From Algibacter amylolyticus (GTDB lineage: Bacteria; Bacteroidota; Bacteroidia; Flavobacteriales; Flavobacteriaceae): a DNA stretch of 43,221 nucleotides. Both the position numbers and the translations under genes were made by a program. Of this stretch, positions 3,327 to 38,596 are shown piece after piece. Numbering within the stretch: the first letter of the stretch is position 1; every line of letters starts with the position of its first letter. The notes under the pieces were generated by a model. The model saw nothing but the letters and a program-made list of their open reading frames with translations, had not been told where the DNA came from and did no database searches. The stretch lies in the NCBI RefSeq assembly GCF_014202225.1, contig NZ_JACHGE010000001.1, forward strand, positions 1 through 43,221, read 5' to 3'.

Positions 3327-4685
3327 TTAAACTACAAAACCTACCAAATCTTCAATTTTAGATATGAGTTGAATCTTAATTACAGTGTTTTTAAGTGATA
3401 TTTTGTTGTATTTTGATACAAAAATAGTTGAAAAACCAAGTTTTTCAGCTTCCAAAATACGTTGCTCCACGCGCTGTACTGGTCTAATTTCGCCTGATAA
3501 ACCAACCTCGGCAGCAAAGCAAAAATCTTTTTGAAGTGAGACATCTTCATTTGAAGATAAAATAGAAGCCACTACCGCTAAATCTATAGCAGGATCATCC
3601 ACAGTTATACCTCCTGTTATGTTTAAAAATACATCTTTAGCTCCTAAACGGAAACCAGCGCGTTTTTCTAAAACAGCTAATAACATATTAAGCCTTTTAG
3701 CATTAAAACCTGTTGCACTTCGTTGCGGCGTACCGTAAACTGCAGTACTTACAAGAGCTTGTACCTCTATCATAAGTGGGCGCATACCCTCTAAGGTAGC
3801 AGCTATAGCATTTCCAGAAAGCTCTTCGTCCTTTTTTGAGATTAAAATTTCCGACGGATTTGAAACCTCTCTTAAACCAGAACCTTGCATTTCATAAATC
3901 CCTAACTCGTTGGTAGACCCAAAACGATTTTTATGTGCCCTTAAAATTCTAAATACGTGGTTTCTATCGCCTTCAAACTGCAAAACAGTATCGACCATGT
4001 GTTCTAAAATTTTAGGGCCAGCAATATTACCATCTTTTGTTATGTGCCCAATTAATAAAACAGGGGTAGCGGTTTCTTTAGCGAACTTAATAAGCTCTGT
4101 AGTACATTCTTTAATCTGCGAAATACTACCTGCCGAAGACTCGATATAATCGCTATGTAAGGTCTGAATAGAATCGATAATTACAATATCCGGCTCTAAA
4201 GCTTCAATTTGCTTGAAGATATTTTGAGTTTTTGTTTCTGTTAAAATATAACAGTTACTATTATTGGGATTAATACGTTCTGCACGCATTTTTATTTGTT
4301 TCTGGCTTTCTTCACCTGAAACATATAAAGTCTTATATGGTAATTTTAATGACACCTGAAGCAAAAGTGTACTTTTACCTATTCCTGGTTCACCTCCCAA
4401 CAAGGTTAATGATCCAGGAACAATACCACCGCCTAAAACACGATTAAACTCGCCATCAAAAGTATCTAATCGGGCTTCCTTTGAAGAATCAATTTGATTA
4501 ATTAATAAAGGAACCGATGCTTTTTTTGCTGCAGTTGTGGACGTTTTCCAATCACTCTTTTCTGGTTTTTGAATAAGCTCCTCTACAATAGTATTCCATT
4601 CTTTACAGGCATTACATTGCCCTTGCCATTTAGCGTATTGTGTACCGCAATTTTGACAAAAAAAAGTTGTTTTTACCTTAGCCAT
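3327..4685 (-). CDS. radA: DNA repair protein RadA
   Basis: RadA is a RecA-related ATPase and DnaB-like helicase that helps branch migration and processing of recombination intermediates. The 452-residue protein has the expected order: an N-terminal C4 zinc finger (C10, C13, C24, C27), Walker A GGEPGIGKST at about 97-106, Walker B VIIDS at 168-172, the RadA-specific KNRFG motif at 252-256, and a C-terminal Lon-protease-like domain that is expected to be non-proteolytic. Length is normal for the family. It is the last gene of a five-gene minus-strand operon; its ATG overlaps the TAA of the upstream gene by one base (TAATG), which suggests translational coupling. Confidence 0.97.
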   Translation of the reverse strand: MAKVKTTFFCQNCGTQYAKWQGQCNACKEWNTIVEELIQKPEKSDWKTSTTAAKKASVPLLINQIDSSKEARLDTFDGEFNRVLGGGIVPGSLTLLGGEPGIGKSTLLLQVSLKLPYKTLYVSGEESQKQIKMRAERINPNNSNCYILTETKTQNIFKQIEALEPDIVIIDSIQTLHSDYIESSAGSISQIKECTTELIKFAKETATPVLLIGHITKDGNIAGPKILEHMVDTVLQFEGDRNHVFRILRAHKNRFGSTNELGIYEMQGSGLREVSNPSEILISKKDEELSGNAIAATLEGMRPLMIEVQALVSTAVYGTPQRSATGFNAKRLNMLLAVLEKRAGFRLGAKDVFLNITGGITVDDPAIDLAVVASILSSNEDVSLQKDFCFAAEVGLSGEIRPVQRVEQRILEAEKLGFSTIFVSKYNKISLKNTVIKIQLISKIEDLVGFVV

Positions 4686-20060: not shown

Positions 20061-20088
20061 AAATTAAAGATTTTGCTGGCGGTTTAGT

Positions 20089-20200
20089 GCGTTAGGGATT
20101 GAGCGGTTTGTTTGAAATCCTTTTTGTTTTTCGCAAAAAGATTGAGTAGCGAAAGCCCGACCGCCTGCCCTGAGCATAGACGAAGGGTGTGGTAACGCCC
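20089..20200 (+). repeat. Three-box intergenic repeat, copy A (with nested palindrome)
   Basis: Contains the three conserved boxes shared with copies B and C: GCGTTAGGGATTGA at the 5' end, GAAAGCCCGACC in the middle (20150-20162) and GGTAACGCCC at the 3' end. GCGTTA and TAACGC at the two ends can pair. Between boxes 1 and 2 lies a CTTTTTG/CAAAAAG hairpin (20120-20140). Between boxes 2 and 3, where B and C have only about 5 bases, A carries an inserted palindrome at 20168-20187. It lies in the divergent region between umuD and a membrane-protein gene. Confidence 0.85.
20168..20187. repeat. Nested CCCTGAGC..GAAGGG palindrome inside copy A
   Basis: CCCT and AGGG close an imperfect palindrome resembling the CTGAGC-GTCGAAG type of short palindromes that I remember being scattered through many bacterial genomes. 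It occupies the small third arm of the repeat, apparently as an insertion. Confidence 0.55.
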
Positions 20201-20318
20201 AAATTAATTTTCTGCTTCTAAATTTAATTTAAAATTTTGAAATATCAACTTTTATTAGACACTATAATACATCTAAACATATCTTATAAACTGTTTATAG
20301 CCGATTTGCGTGTTTTAT

Positions 20319-20326
20319 TATATTTG
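20319..20326 (+). promoter_or_regulatory. TAnnTTTG box six bases before a start codon
   Basis: TATATTTG matches the -10 consensus but ends six bases before the ATG at 20333. If used, the transcript would be leaderless or nearly so; if the longer frame from 20237 is real, the box is inside the coding region and meaningless. Confidence 0.4.
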
Positions 20327-20332
20327 TGGTCA

Positions 20333-20875
20333 ATGGATAAAACACTAACATATATTGAAAGGCAAAAGCCATTATGGCTTCGTATTAGTGCGGCAATATT
20401 ATTTACCATTGTGGCAGGCTTAATTTTCCATTTTGTAATAACAATGGATTTTTCGTTGGAAGAACGCCACTTTTATGGCCACTTCGATTATTTCCAGACT
20501 ATATTTATTCTTTTATTTTTGGCCATTTATTTCTCTTATACAGTAAATTGTTATTTCGATTTTGGAACAAAATTATTTAAGAGAGAAAAAACGATTGGAA
20601 TTTTTAGATATGGACGCTGGAAACCGTTACCAGATTTAGACTATGTATCCTTATTTGCCGTTAATGCCAATACTTTTGAAATAAATTTATGGCATTCGAA
20701 AAACAAACATTGGGATTTATACGAAAAATACGATTTTAAAGACGCCTTTACTATTGCCTATGAGCTTTCGGAACTCTTAGATATTAGCCTACTGGACGCT
20801 ACAATTCCAGGCGATTTTAAATGGGTTGATAAAAAAGCGACGATGGAAAGTGGAAACATGGTGTATGTAAATTAA
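20333..20875 (+). CDS. Hypothetical protein with two membrane segments
   Basis: I do not recognise the family. I chose ATG 20333 (180 aa: MDKTLTYIERQKP...), because the extra 32 residues of the longer frame from 20237 look like leader DNA and a TAnnTTTG box lies just before 20333. Visible: a short basic N-terminus, a hydrophobic segment at about 19-37, a polar stretch with EERHFYGHFDYF, a second hydrophobic segment at about 56-75, then a soluble tail of about 100 residues with mixed charge and no cysteine cluster. The layout recalls small PH-like membrane proteins but I cannot show it. Its end overlaps the convergent DUF3157-like gene by 4 bp. Confidence 0.7.
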   Translation: MDKTLTYIERQKPLWLRISAAILFTIVAGLIFHFVITMDFSLEERHFYGHFDYFQTIFILLFLAIYFSYTVNCYFDFGTKLFKREKTIGIFRYGRWKPLPDLDYVSLFAVNANTFEINLWHSKNKHWDLYEKYDFKDAFTIAYELSELLDISLLDATIPGDFKWVDKKATMESGNMVYVN

Positions 20876-21309
20876 AAAATATCCTGCTTTTTAATAATGG
20901 TATTGCCTATACGCTTATATGCAACAGGTATTCCGTTAGCACAAAATTGATATGTGGCTTTCGATTTTTGTTCGGAAACGGATAGCAATAAAACATCTTC
21001 TATGGTACAATTATTATCTTTTGCTACTTTTGCTTTTACGTGACTTATTGTAGCGCGTCCTTTTTTTAATTGGGCTTGTATTTTACTATTTAAAGCCGGC
21101 TCCTTAAAGTCTGATGCTAAATTACAGCCTGTATCCGCTTTTAAAGGTGTTTTAATGCTTGTTAATGAAGATTGCCCATCGATATACTCCCAAGTAAAAT
21201 CGGCTTTAAGTAATACACGTCTACCATCCTCTGTATTTACAATCTGATTATTTTGTGCACATACAAAAGATGAAACTAAAAGACTTAAAAGGAAAAAATA
21301 TGTTTTCAT
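20872..21309 (-). CDS. Secreted DUF3157-like protein
   Basis: The 145-residue protein has a signal peptide (cut near residue 18, VCAQ) and then the pattern NTEDGRRVLLKADFTWEY, which I associate with DUF3157 and similar small periplasmic proteins. The C-terminal half contains two cysteines (ATYQFC, GCNL and NNCTIED in the middle) and alternates strands. No enzyme motif is seen. It is a lone gene on the minus strand whose end overlaps its convergent neighbour by 4 bp, so there is no terminator between them. Function unknown. Confidence 0.75.
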   Translation of the reverse strand: MKTYFFLLSLLVSSFVCAQNNQIVNTEDGRRVLLKADFTWEYIDGQSSLTSIKTPLKADTGCNLASDFKEPALNSKIQAQLKKGRATISHVKAKVAKDNNCTIEDVLLLSVSEQKSKATYQFCANGIPVAYKRIGNTIIKKQDIF

Positions 21310-21497
21310 GAAGGGAGCGTTATAAGATTATTTGTACCACCAAAAATACAATATAAAATTCATTATGTTTTAAAAAAAATAGAGACGTGAAGAATACAGA
21401 TTGCTGATAGACACCAAATTAATGTAAGAAAAAAATGATGATATTCGTTTACAAACAAAATTTAAAAAACTATATTTACTTAAACTAATCTTGAATT

Positions 21498-21926
21498 ATG
21501 GCCGAAACCTTCACTACAGTTGCAAAATTTCAATATTCGGCAGAGGCGCAAATTGTTAAAGGACGTTTGGTAGCCGAAGGGATTAAAGTATTCTTATTTG
21601 ATAATTTAACTATTGATACAGATCCTTTGGTAAGTAATGCCATTGGAGGCGTAAAGCTAAAAGTTTTATCTACCGATGTCATTAAAGCACGACATATTTT
21701 AGAAAGTATAGCAAAATACTCTATAGATGATGATGGCCAACCCGTAGTATGCCCTAATTGCAATAAGAAGGAAATTGAAATTTTTTCTACCATAACCAAT
21801 TTAAAATCTCTTTTAGCATTCATTTTTGCATTAGTAGCAAACCTTTTAACAAGTGTTTTACCTATTTACACAAAGCACAAATACAGGTGTAATAATTGCA
21901 AAACAGAATTTGAAATTTCTAAGTGA
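21498..21926 (+). CDS. DUF2007 protein with C-terminal zinc ribbon and membrane segment
   Basis: The 142-residue protein begins with a DUF2007-type domain (about 5-75: TTVAKFQYSAEAQIVKGRLVAEGI, VLSTDVIKARHIL), a small alpha-beta fold proposed to act in signalling. A CPNC motif near 87-90 and a CNNC motif near 132-135 can form a split zinc ribbon, with one hydrophobic segment (LKSLLAFIFALVANLLTSVL) between them, so the two halves of the ribbon would lie close to the membrane. The gene stands alone. Role unknown. Confidence 0.82.
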   Translation: MAETFTTVAKFQYSAEAQIVKGRLVAEGIKVFLFDNLTIDTDPLVSNAIGGVKLKVLSTDVIKARHILESIAKYSIDDDGQPVVCPNCNKKEIEIFSTITNLKSLLAFIFALVANLLTSVLPIYTKHKYRCNNCKTEFEISK

Positions 21927-22041
21927 TAAACTGGATTACACGAGTCTTCATTTAGCTAAAAATTCTATCCATTCCATTATATTTAAACGATTGCAATACC
22001 CAAAGTTTGTAACAACACTAAAATTGTTAGTCTCTATATTA

Positions 22042-22085
22042 GTTCTCGATACGATTTTTTTATCAAAAAATCACTCGAACTGACA
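22042..22085. repeat. Intergenic palindrome, possible bidirectional terminator
   Basis: Inner stem GATTTTTT (22053-22060) / AAAAAATC (22065-22072) with TATC loop, flanked by GTTCTCGA on the left and CTCGAAC-TGACA on the right, which extend the pairing imperfectly. It sits between the convergent DUF2007 and mocR genes. From memory, near-identical palindromes are frequent between flavobacterial genes; I could not check this. Confidence 0.6.
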
Positions 22086-22117
22086 CTTTCCAACTCTTAT
22101 TAGCTATTAAAACTTAT

Positions 22118-23599
22118 TTAAAGCACTGCACTATAGGCTATTTTTAGTTTTTTAACTACGAGTTCAATTTCTGCTTCATTAAAATGCCCAAAACCAAACC
22201 GAATAGCACATGTATCTTTATCTTGATATAGCGTGGTATTAGGAAGGTGCAAATCGTTTTTTTCGGCTTCTTCGGCTAATTGTACCAAAGATATTTTGGG
22301 CTCAAATTGCAACCAAATTGCTAGTCCGCCAGATGGTAGTTCCCAATGAATAACATCTTGAAAATGCTGTGTTAAATGCCTACACAAACAATTGCGCCTT
22401 TCTTTATAAATTACAATATTCTTTTTAAGTAGGCGATAAATTTCACCTTCCATAATTAACTCAGCTAGCATTTGTTCCTGTATAACATCTCCCTGCTTAT
22501 CTAGTAATTTTAAATAATTTTTAGCTTCTTTAATTAAATTTTCGGGCGCTACAACAAAACCAACTTGAAAACTAGGGAATAAGGATTGCCCCAACTTGCC
22601 TAAATAAATAACCATGCCCTTAGCATCGGCACTCGCCATAGGTAACATAGCAGAACCTTCGAACTGAAAATCGTAATCAAAATCATCTTCAATTATAGCA
22701 AATTGGTAAGCTTTGGCTAAGGCTAACAATTTTATACGGCGTTCTGCACTTAGTGTTGCTGTTGTTGGGTAATGCCGGTGTGCACAAACATAAACGCACC
22801 TAATACTACCTTTTACAAAATGTGTTTTTATATAATCTACATCCAATCCATGTGCATCCACAGGAATTGTTTTAATATTGGCTCCTGCCTGCTGAAAAAT
22901 CATGTTAGAGGCATAATTACTTAAATGCCCCACCAAAACCACATCGTTTTGCTGTATTAAAAGTTGCGAAACGATATACAAACTCATTTCTGTACTTCGG
23001 GTACTTAAAAGATTATTAGGTTGTATATGGAAACCGCGTGTAGCATTTAAATAATTACACAACTGCATTTCGAAAAGTGAGTAAGATGATTCATTCCATT
23101 TACTAACCACCGATTTTCGTTTCATTACCGCGCTATACCATCTAGAAAATTGGTGTACTGGATGCAATCTTAAATCTGGCGAGCCTTCATTTATACTATA
23201 TTTCGCCTTTGTAACCTTAATATTTGAGGCCAAATTAAAAGACGACTGAAAAGGAAACCCTGTAGTAGTAGAGTATGTATTGGCTTGATCTATATGTTGT
23301 GCGCTAGCTTTTATTTTTGCAGTAGTTTGCTCAGGCACCAAAACAAAAGTGCCTTTATTGGGTATAATATTTACCCAACCTTGCGAGGCTAACTCATCGT
23401 AAACCGCAACAACCGTGTTTCTATGTATTTTTAAAACCTGACTTAAAACGCGGGTTCCGGGTAAAACGGTGCCCTTTGTTAAATAGCCACGTTGTATGGC
23501 ATTTATAACTTGCTGCGCTATTTGGATATATACAGGCTGCGCACTCAATTTGTCGAATTCTATTAACTGATTTAGAAGTTGGCTAACCGGACTATTCAT
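22118..23599 (-). CDS. MocR/GabR-type regulator lacking the PLP lysine
   Basis: MocR regulators join a GntR winged helix to a fold-type I aminotransferase-like domain that senses PLP and an effector. Here the 493 residues comprise the winged helix (about 16-85, TKGTVLPGTRVLSQVLKIHRNTV), a linker, and the large domain (about 130-493) with AHRHYPTT and IIEDDFDYDFQFEG conserved. The Schiff-base segment, usually GTFSKTLFP, reads GKLGQSLFP: Gln338 stands where the lysine is expected. The neighbouring ExPxY segment is also changed (GHLSNY). It is divergent from a TonB receptor with only 71 bp between, and a repeated motif covers its start codon, so autoregulation and control of the receptor are likely. 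Confidence 0.9.
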   Translation of the reverse strand: MNSPVSQLLNQLIEFDKLSAQPVYIQIAQQVINAIQRGYLTKGTVLPGTRVLSQVLKIHRNTVVAVYDELASQGWVNIIPNKGTFVLVPEQTTAKIKASAQHIDQANTYSTTTGFPFQSSFNLASNIKVTKAKYSINEGSPDLRLHPVHQFSRWYSAVMKRKSVVSKWNESSYSLFEMQLCNYLNATRGFHIQPNNLLSTRSTEMSLYIVSQLLIQQNDVVLVGHLSNYASNMIFQQAGANIKTIPVDAHGLDVDYIKTHFVKGSIRCVYVCAHRHYPTTATLSAERRIKLLALAKAYQFAIIEDDFDYDFQFEGSAMLPMASADAKGMVIYLGKLGQSLFPSFQVGFVVAPENLIKEAKNYLKLLDKQGDVIQEQMLAELIMEGEIYRLLKKNIVIYKERRNCLCRHLTQHFQDVIHWELPSGGLAIWLQFEPKISLVQLAEEAEKNDLHLPNTTLYQDKDTCAIRFGFGHFNEAEIELVVKKLKIAYSAVL

Positions 23600-23629
23600 T
23601 GTTTTAAAACTGGACTATTCTACTCGTCC
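23589..23629. promoter_or_regulatory. Candidate MocR operator: direct repeats plus inverted half-site
   Basis: GGACTATTC occurs at 23589-23597 and again at 23612-23620, 23 bases apart (about two helical turns), and a GTCC at 23626-23629 is inverted to the GGAC of the second copy. The first copy overlaps the mocR start codon. MocR proteins such as GabR and PdxR are known to bind spaced direct repeats. Confidence 0.5.
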
Positions 23630-23670
23630 GGAAAGTTACGACTTTTGCAGCGTTAAAAACAAATCATTTA

Positions 23671-25494
23671 ATGAAGTCTATTTACGCTACAATCGCATTT
23701 ACGTGTTTATCTATTATTGGGTACGCACAAGAAAACCCTGTACAAACAAATTCGTTGGAAGAAGTTATTATTAATTCTACAAGAATCAATTTACCTTTTA
23801 AAGAAAACTCTAGAACCATAGATATTATTTCTTCAGAAGACATTAAAAAAAGTGCCTCAACTACCCTAGCCGATTTACTACAACAAGTAGCCGGAATAGA
23901 TATTAGACGCCGTGGAACTGCTGGTAGTCAGGCTGATTTATATATTCGCGGTGGTAGTTTCGACCAAACATTACTGCTAATTGATGGTATAAAAATGGAC
24001 GATGCACAAACCGGGCATCACACCATGAATGCCGCTTTACCGCTAGAAGTTATAGAACGTATTGAAATCATCAAAGGGCCAGCTGCTCGTGTTTTTGGGC
24101 AAAATGCGTTTAATGGTGCCATAAACATAATCACTAAAAAAGAACTTAGCAATTCGGTTTCAGTAAAAACAGAAACTGGATCTTTTGGACAGTTAAACGC
24201 TGGCGTTACCGTTGGTGCAGACCTCGATAACTCGTCGCATATTGTTCATGTAGATAAAATGACATCGGCAGGTTACCGCCATAATACCGATTACGATAAC
24301 AGTAACTATTTTGTTAAAAGCGTTTTTAATAAAAACAAAAAAGCTATTGAAATGATTGCTACGTTTCAAGAACGAAAATTTGGCGCCAATGGGTTTTATG
24401 CTAGAGAAAGCGCTACCGAGCAATACGAAGAAACCCAAAACAGCCTTATTGGATTTACTACAACCTTTAACACCGAAAAATTAACCCTTAAACCTCGCGT
24501 ATACTGGAAACGTAACCAAGATGAATATGTATATTTAAGAAACGACCCAACCGTTTACCGTAATTTACATATTACCAACAAAATTGGCGCAGAGCTTAAC
24601 GGAAACTATACATCTAAAGCCGGAATAACTGGTTTTGGCATCGATCTTTCTCAAGTTTATATTAATAGCAATAATTTAGGAAACCGCAATCGTTTTATGA
24701 CAACCTTGTTTTTAGAACATGCCTTTAAATTAGCCAACCAAAATTTAGATATTACACCAGGCGTTGCGGTTACCTATTTTTCAGATTTCGATTTTTATGC
24801 CTTTCCAGGTATAGACATTGGATACAAAATTAACGACCAATTAAAAGCATACGGTAACATAGGCTATACTTATAGAATACCAACTTATACCGATTTGTAT
24901 TATAACGACCCAAGTACGGTTGGAAACCCAGACTTAGAGGTTGAGGAAGCTTTTTCGCAAGAAATTGGAATTAAATATTTTTCTCCAAAATTTACAGGAT
25001 CGTTGGCCGTTTACAACCGCGATGCACAAAACTTAATAGATTTTGTTCGCACCGGAGTTACAGAAACCATTTATACAGCAACCAATATTACCGAGGTTAA
25101 CACAAAAGGGTTCGAGGTAGATGCTGCATACCATTTTAAACATAACACTTATAACCAAACGCTTGCCGTAGGGTATAACTTTTTAGAAGACGATATTTTA
25201 AACGATAATAAAGACCTATCGCGTTACTCATTAAACACCCTTAAGCACCATTTTACAACCCGTTTAAGTACACAATTTTTTAAAAATGTGAGTCAGAATA
25301 TTATTTACAAACACGCCGAACGTACTACTGGCGATAGTTATAATGTTTGGGATGCCTCCATTGCATTACACCTAAAACAGCTAGAGTTCACCTTTACGGC
25401 AAGTAATATTTTTAATGCCGATTATATTGAAGCTGGTTTCGTGCCTATGCCACCAAGCAATGTGCTTTTTGGGCTAAACTATAAGTTTAAATAA
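23671..25494 (+). CDS. TonB-dependent receptor, BtuB-sized
   Basis: The 607-residue protein has a signal peptide (cut after about residue 19, GYAQ), a TonB-box-like region (NSLEEVIINSTR), a plug domain (about 40-160: SASTTLADLLQQVAGIDIRRRG, IRGGSFDQTLLLIDGIKM, GPAARVFGQNAFNGAINIIT) and a barrel ending in FGLNYKFK. There is no N-terminal carboxypeptidase-like domain. Size and plug resemble cobalamin/siderophore receptors (BtuB type), but the substrate cannot be read from sequence. It is divergent from the MocR-type regulator, which suggests a vitamin, amine or amino-acid-related ligand. A repeat element begins 4 bases after the stop. Confidence 0.93.
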   Translation: MKSIYATIAFTCLSIIGYAQENPVQTNSLEEVIINSTRINLPFKENSRTIDIISSEDIKKSASTTLADLLQQVAGIDIRRRGTAGSQADLYIRGGSFDQTLLLIDGIKMDDAQTGHHTMNAALPLEVIERIEIIKGPAARVFGQNAFNGAINIITKKELSNSVSVKTETGSFGQLNAGVTVGADLDNSSHIVHVDKMTSAGYRHNTDYDNSNYFVKSVFNKNKKAIEMIATFQERKFGANGFYARESATEQYEETQNSLIGFTTTFNTEKLTLKPRVYWKRNQDEYVYLRNDPTVYRNLHITNKIGAELNGNYTSKAGITGFGIDLSQVYINSNNLGNRNRFMTTLFLEHAFKLANQNLDITPGVAVTYFSDFDFYAFPGIDIGYKINDQLKAYGNIGYTYRIPTYTDLYYNDPSTVGNPDLEVEEAFSQEIGIKYFSPKFTGSLAVYNRDAQNLIDFVRTGVTETIYTATNITEVNTKGFEVDAAYHFKHNTYNQTLAVGYNFLEDDILNDNKDLSRYSLNTLKHHFTTRLSTQFFKNVSQNIIYKHAERTTGDSYNVWDASIALHLKQLEFTFTASNIFNADYIEAGFVPMPPSNVLFGLNYKFK

Positions 25495-25497
25495 TTT

Positions 25498-25597
25498 GGG
25501 CGTTACCACAAGGGTCGGGCTTTCGGTAGTCGCTTTTTTGTGTTGCATATGTGCAACAACACAAAAAGAGCTTCAACAGTACCTCAATCCCTAACGC
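25498..25597 (-). repeat. Three-box intergenic repeat, copy B
   Basis: Read on the minus strand it has the same boxes as copy A: GCGTTAGGGATTGA, GAAAGCCCGACC, GGTAACGCCC. The arm between boxes 1 and 2 is a long hairpin (CTTTTTGTGTTG with CAACACAAAAA). The arm between boxes 2 and 3 is short (ACC-CTTGT-GGT). It starts 4 bases after the receptor stop codon and might end transcription. Confidence 0.85.
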
Positions 25598-25764
25598 GGG
25601 TAAGTCTGTATAATTTAATTAACAATCCAATCGTTTTAAGCTTTTCTGCTAGAACTCGCATAATACTAAGCCAAATTTAAAAATACTTTATATCCATATT
25701 GCGGTTTATTCATAACAAATAACATGATGTTTTAAACTCAAGTTTTAGGATTAATGTAACTCGC

Positions 25765-25852
25765 GCGTTAGGGATTGAAGTGGATAGCCCACAGCCTGAC
25801 GTAGGAAGAGCGAGGACTTGTAACGGAAAGCCCGACCCTTGCGGTAACGCCC
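25765..25852 (+). repeat. Three-box intergenic repeat, copy C
   Basis: Shares all three boxes with A and B, but the arm between boxes 1 and 2 is GC-richer and different in sequence (AGTGGATAGCCCACAGCC...), with only weak pairing. The small arm reads ACC-CTTGC-GGT. It ends 32 bases before the -10 box of the next gene. Confidence 0.85.
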
Positions 25853-37252: not shown

Positions 37253-38596
37253 CTAAACTATACCTTGAGCTAACATTGCATCGGCCACTTTTACAAACCC
37301 AGCAATATTTGCTCCTTTTACATAATCTACATAGCCATCATCATCTGTACCATATTCCGAACATGATTTATGAATATCGGACATGATATCTTTAAGTTTA
37401 TTATCCACCTCTTCTCTAGACCATTTGAATCGTAACGAATTCTGTGTCATTTCTAAACCAGACGTTGCTACGCCTCCAGCATTTGATGCTTTACCGGGAG
37501 CAAATAATATTTTAGCTTTATGGAAAGCTGCAATAGCCTCCTTAGTTGACGGCATATTTGCCCCTTCACTAACACAAATGCAACCGTTGCTTAAAAGCGT
37601 ATTAGCATCTTCTTCTTGTAGTTCATTTTGAGTTGCACAAGGCAATGCAACATCGCATTTTTCACCCCAAGGTGTTTTTCCTTTTATAAATTTAGCGTTA
37701 GGGTATGACTCTAAATACTCACTTATTCTACCACGTTTTACATTTTTCAGATCCATAACAAAAGCTAATTTATCTGCATCAATACCGTCCTCATCAAAAA
37801 TATAACCCGATGAATCTGAAAGTGTTAAAACCTTACCACCCAACTGCAATACTTTTTCGGCAGCATATTGCGCCACATTACCTGAACCCGAAATCACTAC
37901 GCTTTTACCTTTAATAGTATCGTTTTTAGTTTCAAGCATTTTTTGCGCAAAATACACATTACCGTAGCCTGTTGCTTCCGGTCTAATTAATGAGCCACCC
38001 CATGTTAAACCTTTACCTGTTAACACCCCAGTAAACTCATTTTTTAATTTTTTATACATCCCGAATAAAAACCCAATTTCTCGAGTTCCTACTCCAATAT
38101 CTCCTGCAGGAACATCGGTATTTGGACCAATATACCTAAACAATTCACTCATAAAGGCGTGGCAAAAACGCATAATTTCATTATCCGATTTCCCTTTAGG
38201 ATCAAAATCGCTACCTCCTTTTCCACCACCCATTGGCAACGTGGTTAAAGAGTTTTTAAAGACTTGCTCGAAAGCCAAAAATTTTAAAATGCTAGCATTT
38301 ACGGTAGGATGAAATCTTAATCCTCCTTTGTAAGGGCCTATTGCAGAATTCATCTGCACACGATACCCCCTATTTACTTGAATCTCTCCACTATCATCCA
38401 CCCACGATACTCTAAAAGATATTAGTCGTTCAGGTTCAACCATTCGTAGTAAAATATTTTTACCATAGTAAATATCATGCTTTACGATGTAAGGAATTAC
38501 TGTTTCTGCAACCTCCTCTACAGCCTGCAAAAACTCAGGCTCATGGCCATTTCTTTCCCTAACTAAGTCTAAAAACGATTCTATATTTTGTTTCAT
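37253..38596 (-). CDS. gdhA: Glutamate dehydrogenase (NADP type)
   Basis: GdhA interconverts 2-oxoglutarate plus ammonia and glutamate. The 447-residue protein equals the E. coli GdhA in length and has GPYKGGLRFHPTVN (Lys90), PMGGGKGGSDFDPKGKSDNE with catalytic Lys126, and the dinucleotide-binding GSGNVAQYAAEK. The hexameric, NADP-dependent small form is most likely by length and motif, though cofactor is inferred. It is monocistronic, with a TATATTTG box on the minus strand at 38646-38653 and its own terminator. The divergent gene encodes a barrel protein. Confidence 0.97.
   Translation of the reverse strand: MKQNIESFLDLVRERNGHEPEFLQAVEEVAETVIPYIVKHDIYYGKNILLRMVEPERLISFRVSWVDDSGEIQVNRGYRVQMNSAIGPYKGGLRFHPTVNASILKFLAFEQVFKNSLTTLPMGGGKGGSDFDPKGKSDNEIMRFCHAFMSELFRYIGPNTDVPAGDIGVGTREIGFLFGMYKKLKNEFTGVLTGKGLTWGGSLIRPEATGYGNVYFAQKMLETKNDTIKGKSVVISGSGNVAQYAAEKVLQLGGKVLTLSDSSGYIFDEDGIDADKLAFVMDLKNVKRGRISEYLESYPNAKFIKGKTPWGEKCDVALPCATQNELQEEDANTLLSNGCICVSEGANMPSTKEAIAAFHKAKILFAPGKASNAGGVATSGLEMTQNSLRFKWSREEVDNKLKDIMSDIHKSCSEYGTDDDGYVDYVKGANIAGFVKVADAMLAQGIV

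Follow-up and report, generated by a model that had tools for sequence, protein, structure and literature searches.

Intergenic repeats of Algibacter amylolyticus with a conserved frame and variable arms are a variant of Flavo-1 and may act as structured DNA

Introduction

Flavo-1 RNA (RF01705) was described by Weinberg et al. 2010 (PMC2864571), is listed in Rfam as type 'Gene; sRNA' (small RNA) and, in the part of PMC9029176 available to us, is named as one of the most abundant sRNA families annotated in bacteria, no function being stated there; the accessible part of PMC12306157 holds a count table that includes Flavobacterium species. Here we analyse a stretch of 43,221 nucleotides (nt) from the flavobacterium Algibacter amylolyticus (the window; assembly GCF_014202225.1, contig NZ_JACHGE010000001.1, positions 1 to 43,221), which carries three copies of an intergenic element belonging to a variant of this family. 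The likeness to Flavo-1 lies in a full-length match to the model on the same strand, with the same core and helices, whereas the Rfam model lacks the GCGTTA/TAACGC end stem and the side arm P3 of the elements described here and has a single arm type. Flavo-1 is listed as an sRNA, whereas the evidence assembled here leans towards DNA. Our favoured reading, to which we assign a probability of roughly 45%, is that three conserved boxes form the unchanging frame of a structured DNA repeat dispersed between genes, similar in habit to repetitive extragenic palindromes (REPs), whose arms are exchanged between copies.

Other described systems share single traits with these elements. The core boxes of attC sites, RYYYAAC..GTTRRRY, stand in the order AAC..GTT; conserved ends, a variable folded middle and a single-strand reading recall such sites, from which Flavo-1-like copies differ in being dispersed rather than set in arrays. 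An attC-like substrate had been proposed in a preliminary description of the window, made from its letters alone, and was rejected on box polarity, the ends here (GCGTTA..TAACGC or paired variants) running GTTA..TAAC, opposite to attC. Loops in which GNA faces GNA or GA faces GA resemble the (GNA)2 and tandem G.A zipper motifs of DNA; unlike those motifs, the loops found here lie within a bacterial repeat with covarying helices and are known from sequence. REPs and bacterial interspersed mosaic elements (BIMEs), with their REP-associated tyrosine transposases (RAYTs), resemble the present family in being of high copy number, located between genes, folded and non-autonomous. REPs are palindromes of 20-40 bp bearing a terminal GTAG or CGTC tag, as given in the part of PMC3733652 available to us, whereas Flavo-1-like elements are 74-149 nt long (64 copies) with modular arms. 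Literature searches aimed at subjects other than Flavo-1 itself, covering titles and the starts of abstracts, showed nothing on the repeat family among the papers listed.

Three copies in the window

The preliminary description had placed three copies of a three-box repeat between positions 20,089 and 25,852, and both their positions and the order of the boxes were confirmed on the sequence. Box 2, GAAAGCCCGACC, is exact at 20151-20162 (+), 25513-25524 (-) and 25826-25837 (+), compared with 0.07 occurrences expected at up to one mismatch, and 0 of 100 shuffles reached three. A window search found box 1, GCGTTAGGGATTGA, exact at 20089, 25584 and 25765. The elements, and the parts of the first of them, are as follows.

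20089..20198, + strand: copy 1, Flavo-1-like, 110 nt, GCGTTA..TAACGC frame, class A arm, second arm enlarged
20089..20094, + strand: copy 1, 5' strand of the end stem P1, GCGTTA, a 5 bp stem plus A
20095..20101, + strand: copy 1, joint 1, GGGATTG, in which GGG pairs with CCC and TT with AA
20102..20150, + strand: copy 1, exchangeable P2 arm, class A
20151..20162, + strand: copy 1, joint 2, GAAAGCCCGACC
20163..20192, + strand: copy 1, P3 arm, enlarged by a GCCTGCCCTGAGC..GAAGGGTG repeat
20193..20204, + strand: copy 1, 3' strand of P1, TAACGC, with the conserved tail CCAAAT
25500..25597, - strand: copy 2, Flavo-1-like, 98 nt, class D arm
25765..25850, + strand: copy 3, Flavo-1-like, 86 nt, class B arm

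The P2 arm, which separates box 1 from box 2, thus belongs to a different class in each of the three copies. A covariance model (R1), built from 51 of the 64 genome copies with an exact box 2 and excluding 13 long-armed ones, matched copy 1 at 20086-20201 with 67.6 bits, copy 2 with 75.3 bits and copy 3 with 89.5 bits; RF01705 gave the same copies 24.3, 29.5 and 28.5 bits. Box-1-like sequences with two mismatches also occur at 3895-3908 and 37695-37708, and are not elements by R1, which has three matches in the window in total. A CTGTCCTGAGC..GTCGAAGGGTG-type repeat occupies the P3 arm at 20163-20192 and recurs in that of four other copies (L018, L028, L044 and L052).

A genome-wide variant of Flavo-1

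The A. amylolyticus genome (4.35 Mb, 25 contigs) contains 64 exact copies of box 2, 30 forward and 34 reverse, and the reversed pattern, used as a control, has 0 matches. All 150 candidates scored with R1, from a total of 1020, matched, so the copy number is at least 150. With a simple caller of open reading frames (ORFs), 56 of the 64 copies are clear of ORFs of 300 nt or more; the other eight (L007, L019, L039, L042, L053, L058, L060 and L064) overlap by 10 to 245 nt frames taken from the caller as they stand, unchecked as genes.

The window has no match to Rfam at the gathering threshold. At an E-value threshold, seven elements in six loci match positions 1-76 of RF01705 on the element + strand; against a cut-off of 42 bits, long-armed elements score 52, 50, 44.1 and 38.4 bits, and a sister copy with the same frame as the window copies (C1:73662) reaches 57.9 bits. 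Across the genome the Rfam model has at least 77 matches at E<=1e-3 and at least 41 above the cut-off among 150 of 1053 candidates scored; 14 control genomes had no RF01705 match. The window family is thus a Flavo-1 variant, with an outer stem and a side arm absent from the Rfam model; we use 'variant' rather than plain member because all three window copies fall below the cut-off. Relatives in other flavobacteria, put forward in the preliminary description, are supported by the Rfam family, and the family proves to be one that has been described and whose function has not.

Anatomy and covariation of the frame

The pairing of the ends GCGTTA and TAACGC, predicted from the three window copies, is borne out by covariation across the genome. 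Of 62 copies parsed by script (two of the 64 failed), 40 have GCGTTA/TAACGC, six GCGCTA/TAGCGC, two GCATTA/TAATGC, and one each GCGTAA/TTACGC, GCGCAA/TTGCGC and GCGTGA/GCACGC; the remaining 11 have at least one unpaired end position or were mis-ended by the script. In the 51 copies behind R1, three of the five pairs of P1 (GCGTT/AACGC) change on both sides, giving 16 such cells compared with 2.3 in shuffles, a covariation score reached by 0 of 500 shuffles, and 99.5% of P1 cells pair versus at most 57.8% in slid versions.

Inside P1 lie GGG/CCC, an A.G mismatch and TT/AA, near-invariant in R1 copies; in other species and frame types the corresponding pairs are CCG/CGG, CTG/CAG, GTG/CAC, GCG/CGC and TA/TA. 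Beyond this core come a 3x3 GNA/GNA or 2x2 GA/GA internal loop, a 2-bp helix and then the P2 arm. These parts were analysed in 63 of the 64 copies, 62 of them distinct, split into 3x3 and 2x2 forms by signatures chosen by eye. GNA is present in 59/62 of the 5' loops and 58/62 of the 3' loops, and GA in 23/24 and 24/24, respectively, of the 2x2 form. The 2-bp helix covaries (GC/GC, AC/GT, GT/AC, CT/AG, AA/TT) and is Watson-Crick in 65 of 76 pairs in the 3x3 copies of A. amylolyticus (five G.T, six other), 44/48 in its 2x2 copies and 46/48 in other cores; slid controls gave 5, 8, 4 and 25 of 62. The foreign cores number 24 of 35, after removal of nine A. amylolyticus copies already counted and two copies from genome G099. 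Their first three pairs lean to pairing because the cores were selected by complementarity, and the other four pairs, outside that selection, are Watson-Crick in 93 of 96 cases.

P3 is a CC/GG side arm placed before P1 closes, with a loop that is sometimes enlarged; it is invariant and therefore without covariation. The tail CCAAAT is conserved in 61, 53, 54, 61, 52 and 42 of 64 copies at its successive positions. By eye, other species carry different outer stems, such as TTTTTAGC..GCTCCTAAAAA, on the same core. The earlier suggestion of a strand that folds, with joints that are kept and arms that can be exchanged, is supported, and the stems of the folded strand covary.

Exchange of arms at fixed sites

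At least seven classes of P2 arm (A to G), named by sight, occur on a frame that is kept, and orthologous sites carry different arm classes in different species. At the TonB-gene site the + strand window copy has class B, an uncultured Algibacter (L101) class C and Tamlana sedimentorum (L109) class G, with similar 3' flanks; Algibacter pectinivorans (L096) retains no more than a remnant of both window copies. At the copy-1 site, linked between genomes by flank matches, class A is present in L096, L101 and L166, long payload arms in Mariniflexile (L098, L100), class C in Olleya aquimaris (L138) and a D/E-like arm in Mesoflavibacter (L174). The site is empty, with short spacers, in L119, L136, L142, L150, L170 and L173, and by eye no element was seen in the spacers of L107, L121 and L125.

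Compared with genome G009, another arm is present in three of the four single-copy-comparable pairs matched on both flanks (L009+, L010, L038, L057). Compared with the nearest relative (G002), arms have changed at C1:83049, C1:94724 and C1:103213 of A. amylolyticus, beside the 42 kept pairs described below; at C1:94724 the flanking spacer is altered too. By eye, the C arm occurs in at least three frames. The possibility that arms are free-standing repeats was rejected using six arm queries over 2 x 400 kb, in which three hits lay outside R1 elements and these were, by eye, other Flavo-1-like frames. Long-payload arms, in elements of 142-149 nt, are found in L023, L030, L032, L035, L037, L047, L059 and L063; the payloads differ among copies and hold most of the element differences in three ortholog pairs.

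Conservation between orthologs

Of 78 A. amylolyticus elements compared with G002, 25 had no mapped ortholog (G002 was compared in part, so that unmapped does not mean absent), five failed on length, six fell below the coverage and identity filter and 42 were kept. In the kept pairs the elements differ at 79/3859 positions (2.05%) and noncoding DNA within 200 nt at 452/7262 (6.2%; Fisher p 1.4e-25), while coding DNA of the same pairs differs at 4455/92841. Many of these pairs were retrieved by way of a perfectly matching box 2 in each genome, a selection that biases towards identity, the filter drops degraded copies, and insertions in G002 are not counted as differences. For ten pairs from a 400 kb comparison, in which G002 was not box-selected, the corresponding values are 18/861 versus 63/1149 (p 1.3e-4).

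The 400 kb comparison took 25 elements from C1:1-400,000 of A. amylolyticus, namely 24 of 25 R1 matches (one at E 0.05 was dropped) and one copy without P1 found by an Rfam scan of 7 of 20 stretches, and, from C12:100,001-500,000 of G002, all but one of the 21 R1 matches (the one left out had E 0.07). By tally, 18 of the 25 have an element at the same G002 site. Changes in P1 between orthologs comprise one pair altered on both sides and still pairing (L055) and one broken (C1:63541). Because orthologs share private features, such as the second arms of L031 and L053, we infer that kept copies are probably under site-wise constraint rather than homogenised.

Other repeats and rearrangements were observed at these sites. 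Repeated insertion of a palindrome, CCTGCCTGCCGGCAGGCAGG, some 20 bp long, is seen in Flavo-1 frames, often in the end stem between its TAA and its CGC, in the G002 orthologs L249, L232 and L224 and at C1 sites of A. amylolyticus compared with G002. A repeat beginning ACTTCTCGATAC abuts the 3' end of L005, L029, L030, L047, L053 and L059, in some cases with a later GAAGTGA. In one case, judged by flank order and orientation, an inversion between the species ends at inverted copies (C1:292878-292970, -, and 322984-323075, +); neither end in G002 C12 has a clear element.

Strand, pairing and transcription

Copies in tandem spacers lie in both orientations, 16 sense and 24 antisense among the 64, with six further copies in divergent and 18 in convergent spacers (p 0.023). 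Within the 400 kb, 4 of the 24 elements that could be placed fall in divergent spacers, a type accounting for 45 of 214 spacers, so promoter avoidance is weak there. In the end-stem and core columns of 168 distinct copies, 1966 pairs are Watson-Crick, 15 G.T, 13 A.C and 12 other; a control of 11 tRNAs only gave 14 G.T and no A.C among 230 pairs, from a tRNA finder that may itself avoid A.C. For the inner pairs, the mean pair probability over 63 copies was highest for the + strand folded as DNA (0.43 for GGG/CCC and 0.35 for TT/AA) and was 0.20 and 0.08 for the + strand folded as RNA.

A promoter of the form TTG-N16-20-TANNTTTG was present within 120 nt upstream of 0 of 64 copies. TANNTTTG alone occurs upstream of six of the 64, compared with 15, 8 and 7 in the other three combinations of flank and strand, and a promoter belonging to the element was rejected on the grounds that this motif is no commoner upstream than in those combinations. 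An intrinsic terminator was rejected as well, the flank consensus of the 64 copies having no T-run after the end stem.

Distribution and mobility

Flavo-1 matches were found in at least 60 of 149 members of the class, with strong variation among and within genera; four genomes of genus g52 have at least 0, 12, 2 and 24 matches, with at most 29 candidates scored. Contig C1 of A. amylolyticus has 25 exact copies, 13 on the + and 12 on the - strand. Mobility of these elements is plausible. Two copies at L309, 9.4 kb apart, share flanking sequence by eye. The preliminary description had suggested a look for empty sites in close relatives, and short, element-free spacers do exist at the copy-1 site, while no clean insertion with a target duplication was seen in the sites compared with relatives.

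A RAYT-driven REP was rejected as a present requirement, and a link to a TnpA-REP/Y1 transposase was not supported: RAYT systems have the transposase present, whereas, among the 15 genomes that have 13 or more Flavo-1 matches (A. amylolyticus included), five lack Y1_Tnp (PF01797). The five are G005, G007, G012, G014 and G025, with at least 25, 50, 24, 13 and 14 matches, respectively, and the presence of Y1_Tnp does not track Flavo-1 number. The only Y1_Tnp (HUH, IS200-like) match in A. amylolyticus (L066, G000:C2:316070-316282, minus strand) lies at residues 502-571 of the piece in a 1302-codon frame for an Eco57I-type restriction-modification protein (Pfam Eco57I, N6_Mtase, TaqI_C and MmeI_Mtase), and genomes G001-G004 likewise have Y1_Tnp matches within long frames (1074-1287 codons). 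In the ORFs printed for 20 regions no transposase was recognised by eye, no library search having been made. With window copy 2 as the sole query, no match was found in phages, and a plasmid search gave three partial matches (CP012860 and CP012852 of Persicobacter, NZ_CP027230 of Capnocytophaga), the carriers being two large replicons and a plasmid of 28.7 kb.

Discussion

In the favoured reading of a REP-like DNA repeat, the + strand of the element folds, with support from covariation, into P1, the GGG/CCC and TT/AA pairs flanking an A.G mismatch, the GNA or GA loop and the 2-bp helix that leads into the P2 arm, with P3 as an invariant side arm. The joints, not the arms, may be recognised by a putative host protein when the + strand is single-stranded or extruded, as could occur during replication or transcription or under supercoiling, and the arms would be free to change since the joints alone would be recognised. 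Such changes could arise when copies with common joints recombine or when the template is switched from one to another. Copies would then act at the DNA level, much as REPs and BIMEs do, providing intergenic sites for binding or architecture, and would not function as an expressed sRNA. In favour of this reading we count the high copy number, the covariation, the slow change of kept copies, the exchange of arms at fixed sites, the mixed orientation to genes here and in the transcriptome data of PMC9723704, the lack of an excess of wobble pairs in the stem and core columns, and the inner pairs being likeliest when the + strand is folded as DNA. That Flavo-1 across Bacteroidia is as a whole not an RNA family and is instead a single-stranded DNA (ssDNA) structure element, with a GNA-zipper frame for a putative hairpin-binding protein and arms swapped as cassettes in the course of evolution, the whole forming a large modular system of DNA repeats, is an extension that we offer tentatively and consider somewhat doubtful.

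Several observations weigh against the favoured reading. The right-hand gene is convergent for 42 of 64 copies (p 0.017), and in tandem spacers 24 of 40 copies are antisense (p 0.27), as are 10 of 14 in the 400 kb of A. amylolyticus and 10 of 12 in that of G002, which are partly the same orthologs. Core and helix pairs show nine G.T and one A.C (eight and none in the 2-bp helix), a wobble asymmetry compatible with + strand RNA and with ssDNA alike. The probability of P1 is 0.79 (+) and 0.86 (-) as RNA versus 0.76 and 0.65 as DNA; single-copy RNA folds beat shuffles for copy 1 (z -3.22) and copy 2 (z -2.95), the folds concerned not being the covarying structure, and as DNA only copy 2 does so (z -3.86; copy 1 -1.47, copy 3 +0.34). 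Of the 25 copies in the unselected 400 kb, no more than 10 pass as kept in G002: three have changed arms (L005, C1:83049, C1:103213), three are degraded or truncated (L001, L004, C1:212394), three are deleted (both L009 copies and L012), one is mismatched in length and five are unmapped, of which C1:336099 has a counterpart, while the G002 copies of L007, C1:63541, C1:140001 and C1:267430 contain the inserted palindrome or another insert. Neither a binding protein nor an enzyme for Flavo-1-like elements emerged from the analysis.

Some of these patterns would be expected if Flavo-1 were a genuine structured RNA, acting in cis at mRNA ends or as a protein-binding sRNA that folds as the + strand. 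The Rfam type, the covariation and the G.A-rich loops common in RNA agree with such an RNA, as do the ratio of G.T to A.C in core and helix pairs and the lean to antisense and convergent neighbours. It is nevertheless a rather unlikely explanation in our view: the strand relative to genes is inconsistent, the promoter signature is missing and TANNTTTG not enriched upstream, the genome holds at least 150 copies, and G.T and A.C are almost equally frequent in the stem columns. Transcriptome data in the available part of PMC9723704 also place Flavo-1 hits indistinctly sense or antisense, many of them outside transcribed regions. The probabilities given to the different readings do not sum to one because the rivals overlap.

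One such overlapping possibility is that the family is a non-autonomous mobile element, akin to miniature inverted-repeat transposable elements (MITE-like) or REPIN-like, in which a putative transposase recognises the joints of the folded strand and leaves the arms free. The divergent match numbers within genus g52, the occupation of the copy-1 site in some species and its short spacers in others, and the common flanks seen by eye at L309 are consistent with this. The persistence of an element at the same G002 site for most copies of the 400 kb, the slow change of kept copies, the copy-rich genomes without Y1_Tnp, the lack of a transposase recognised by eye in the printed ORFs, the mixed strands on C1 (on which the origin was not located) and the lack of a clean target-duplicating insertion argue in the other direction, and we regard such an element as possible, with the odds against it. 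A further concern is that apparent arm swaps may be independent insertions at intergenic hot spots or replacements of whole spacers, given that spacers carry several unrelated repeats, that C1:94724 differs on both sides and that L186 and L196 of G009 differ on the 5' side. This we consider improbable, since an unusual, long 3' arm and the 3' flank are common to C1:103213 and its counterpart in G002, and C1:83049 agrees with its ortholog in the 3' arm and in both flanks, while the P2 arms differ in both cases.

Should Flavo-1 prove to be a DNA element, many of the sRNAs annotated automatically in Bacteroidetes would be misannotated, and the A. amylolyticus genome would hold 150 or more copies of a modular repeat whose binding partner has yet to be found. 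The anatomy of frame and arms gives the exact oligonucleotides and joint mutants for a search for that partner.

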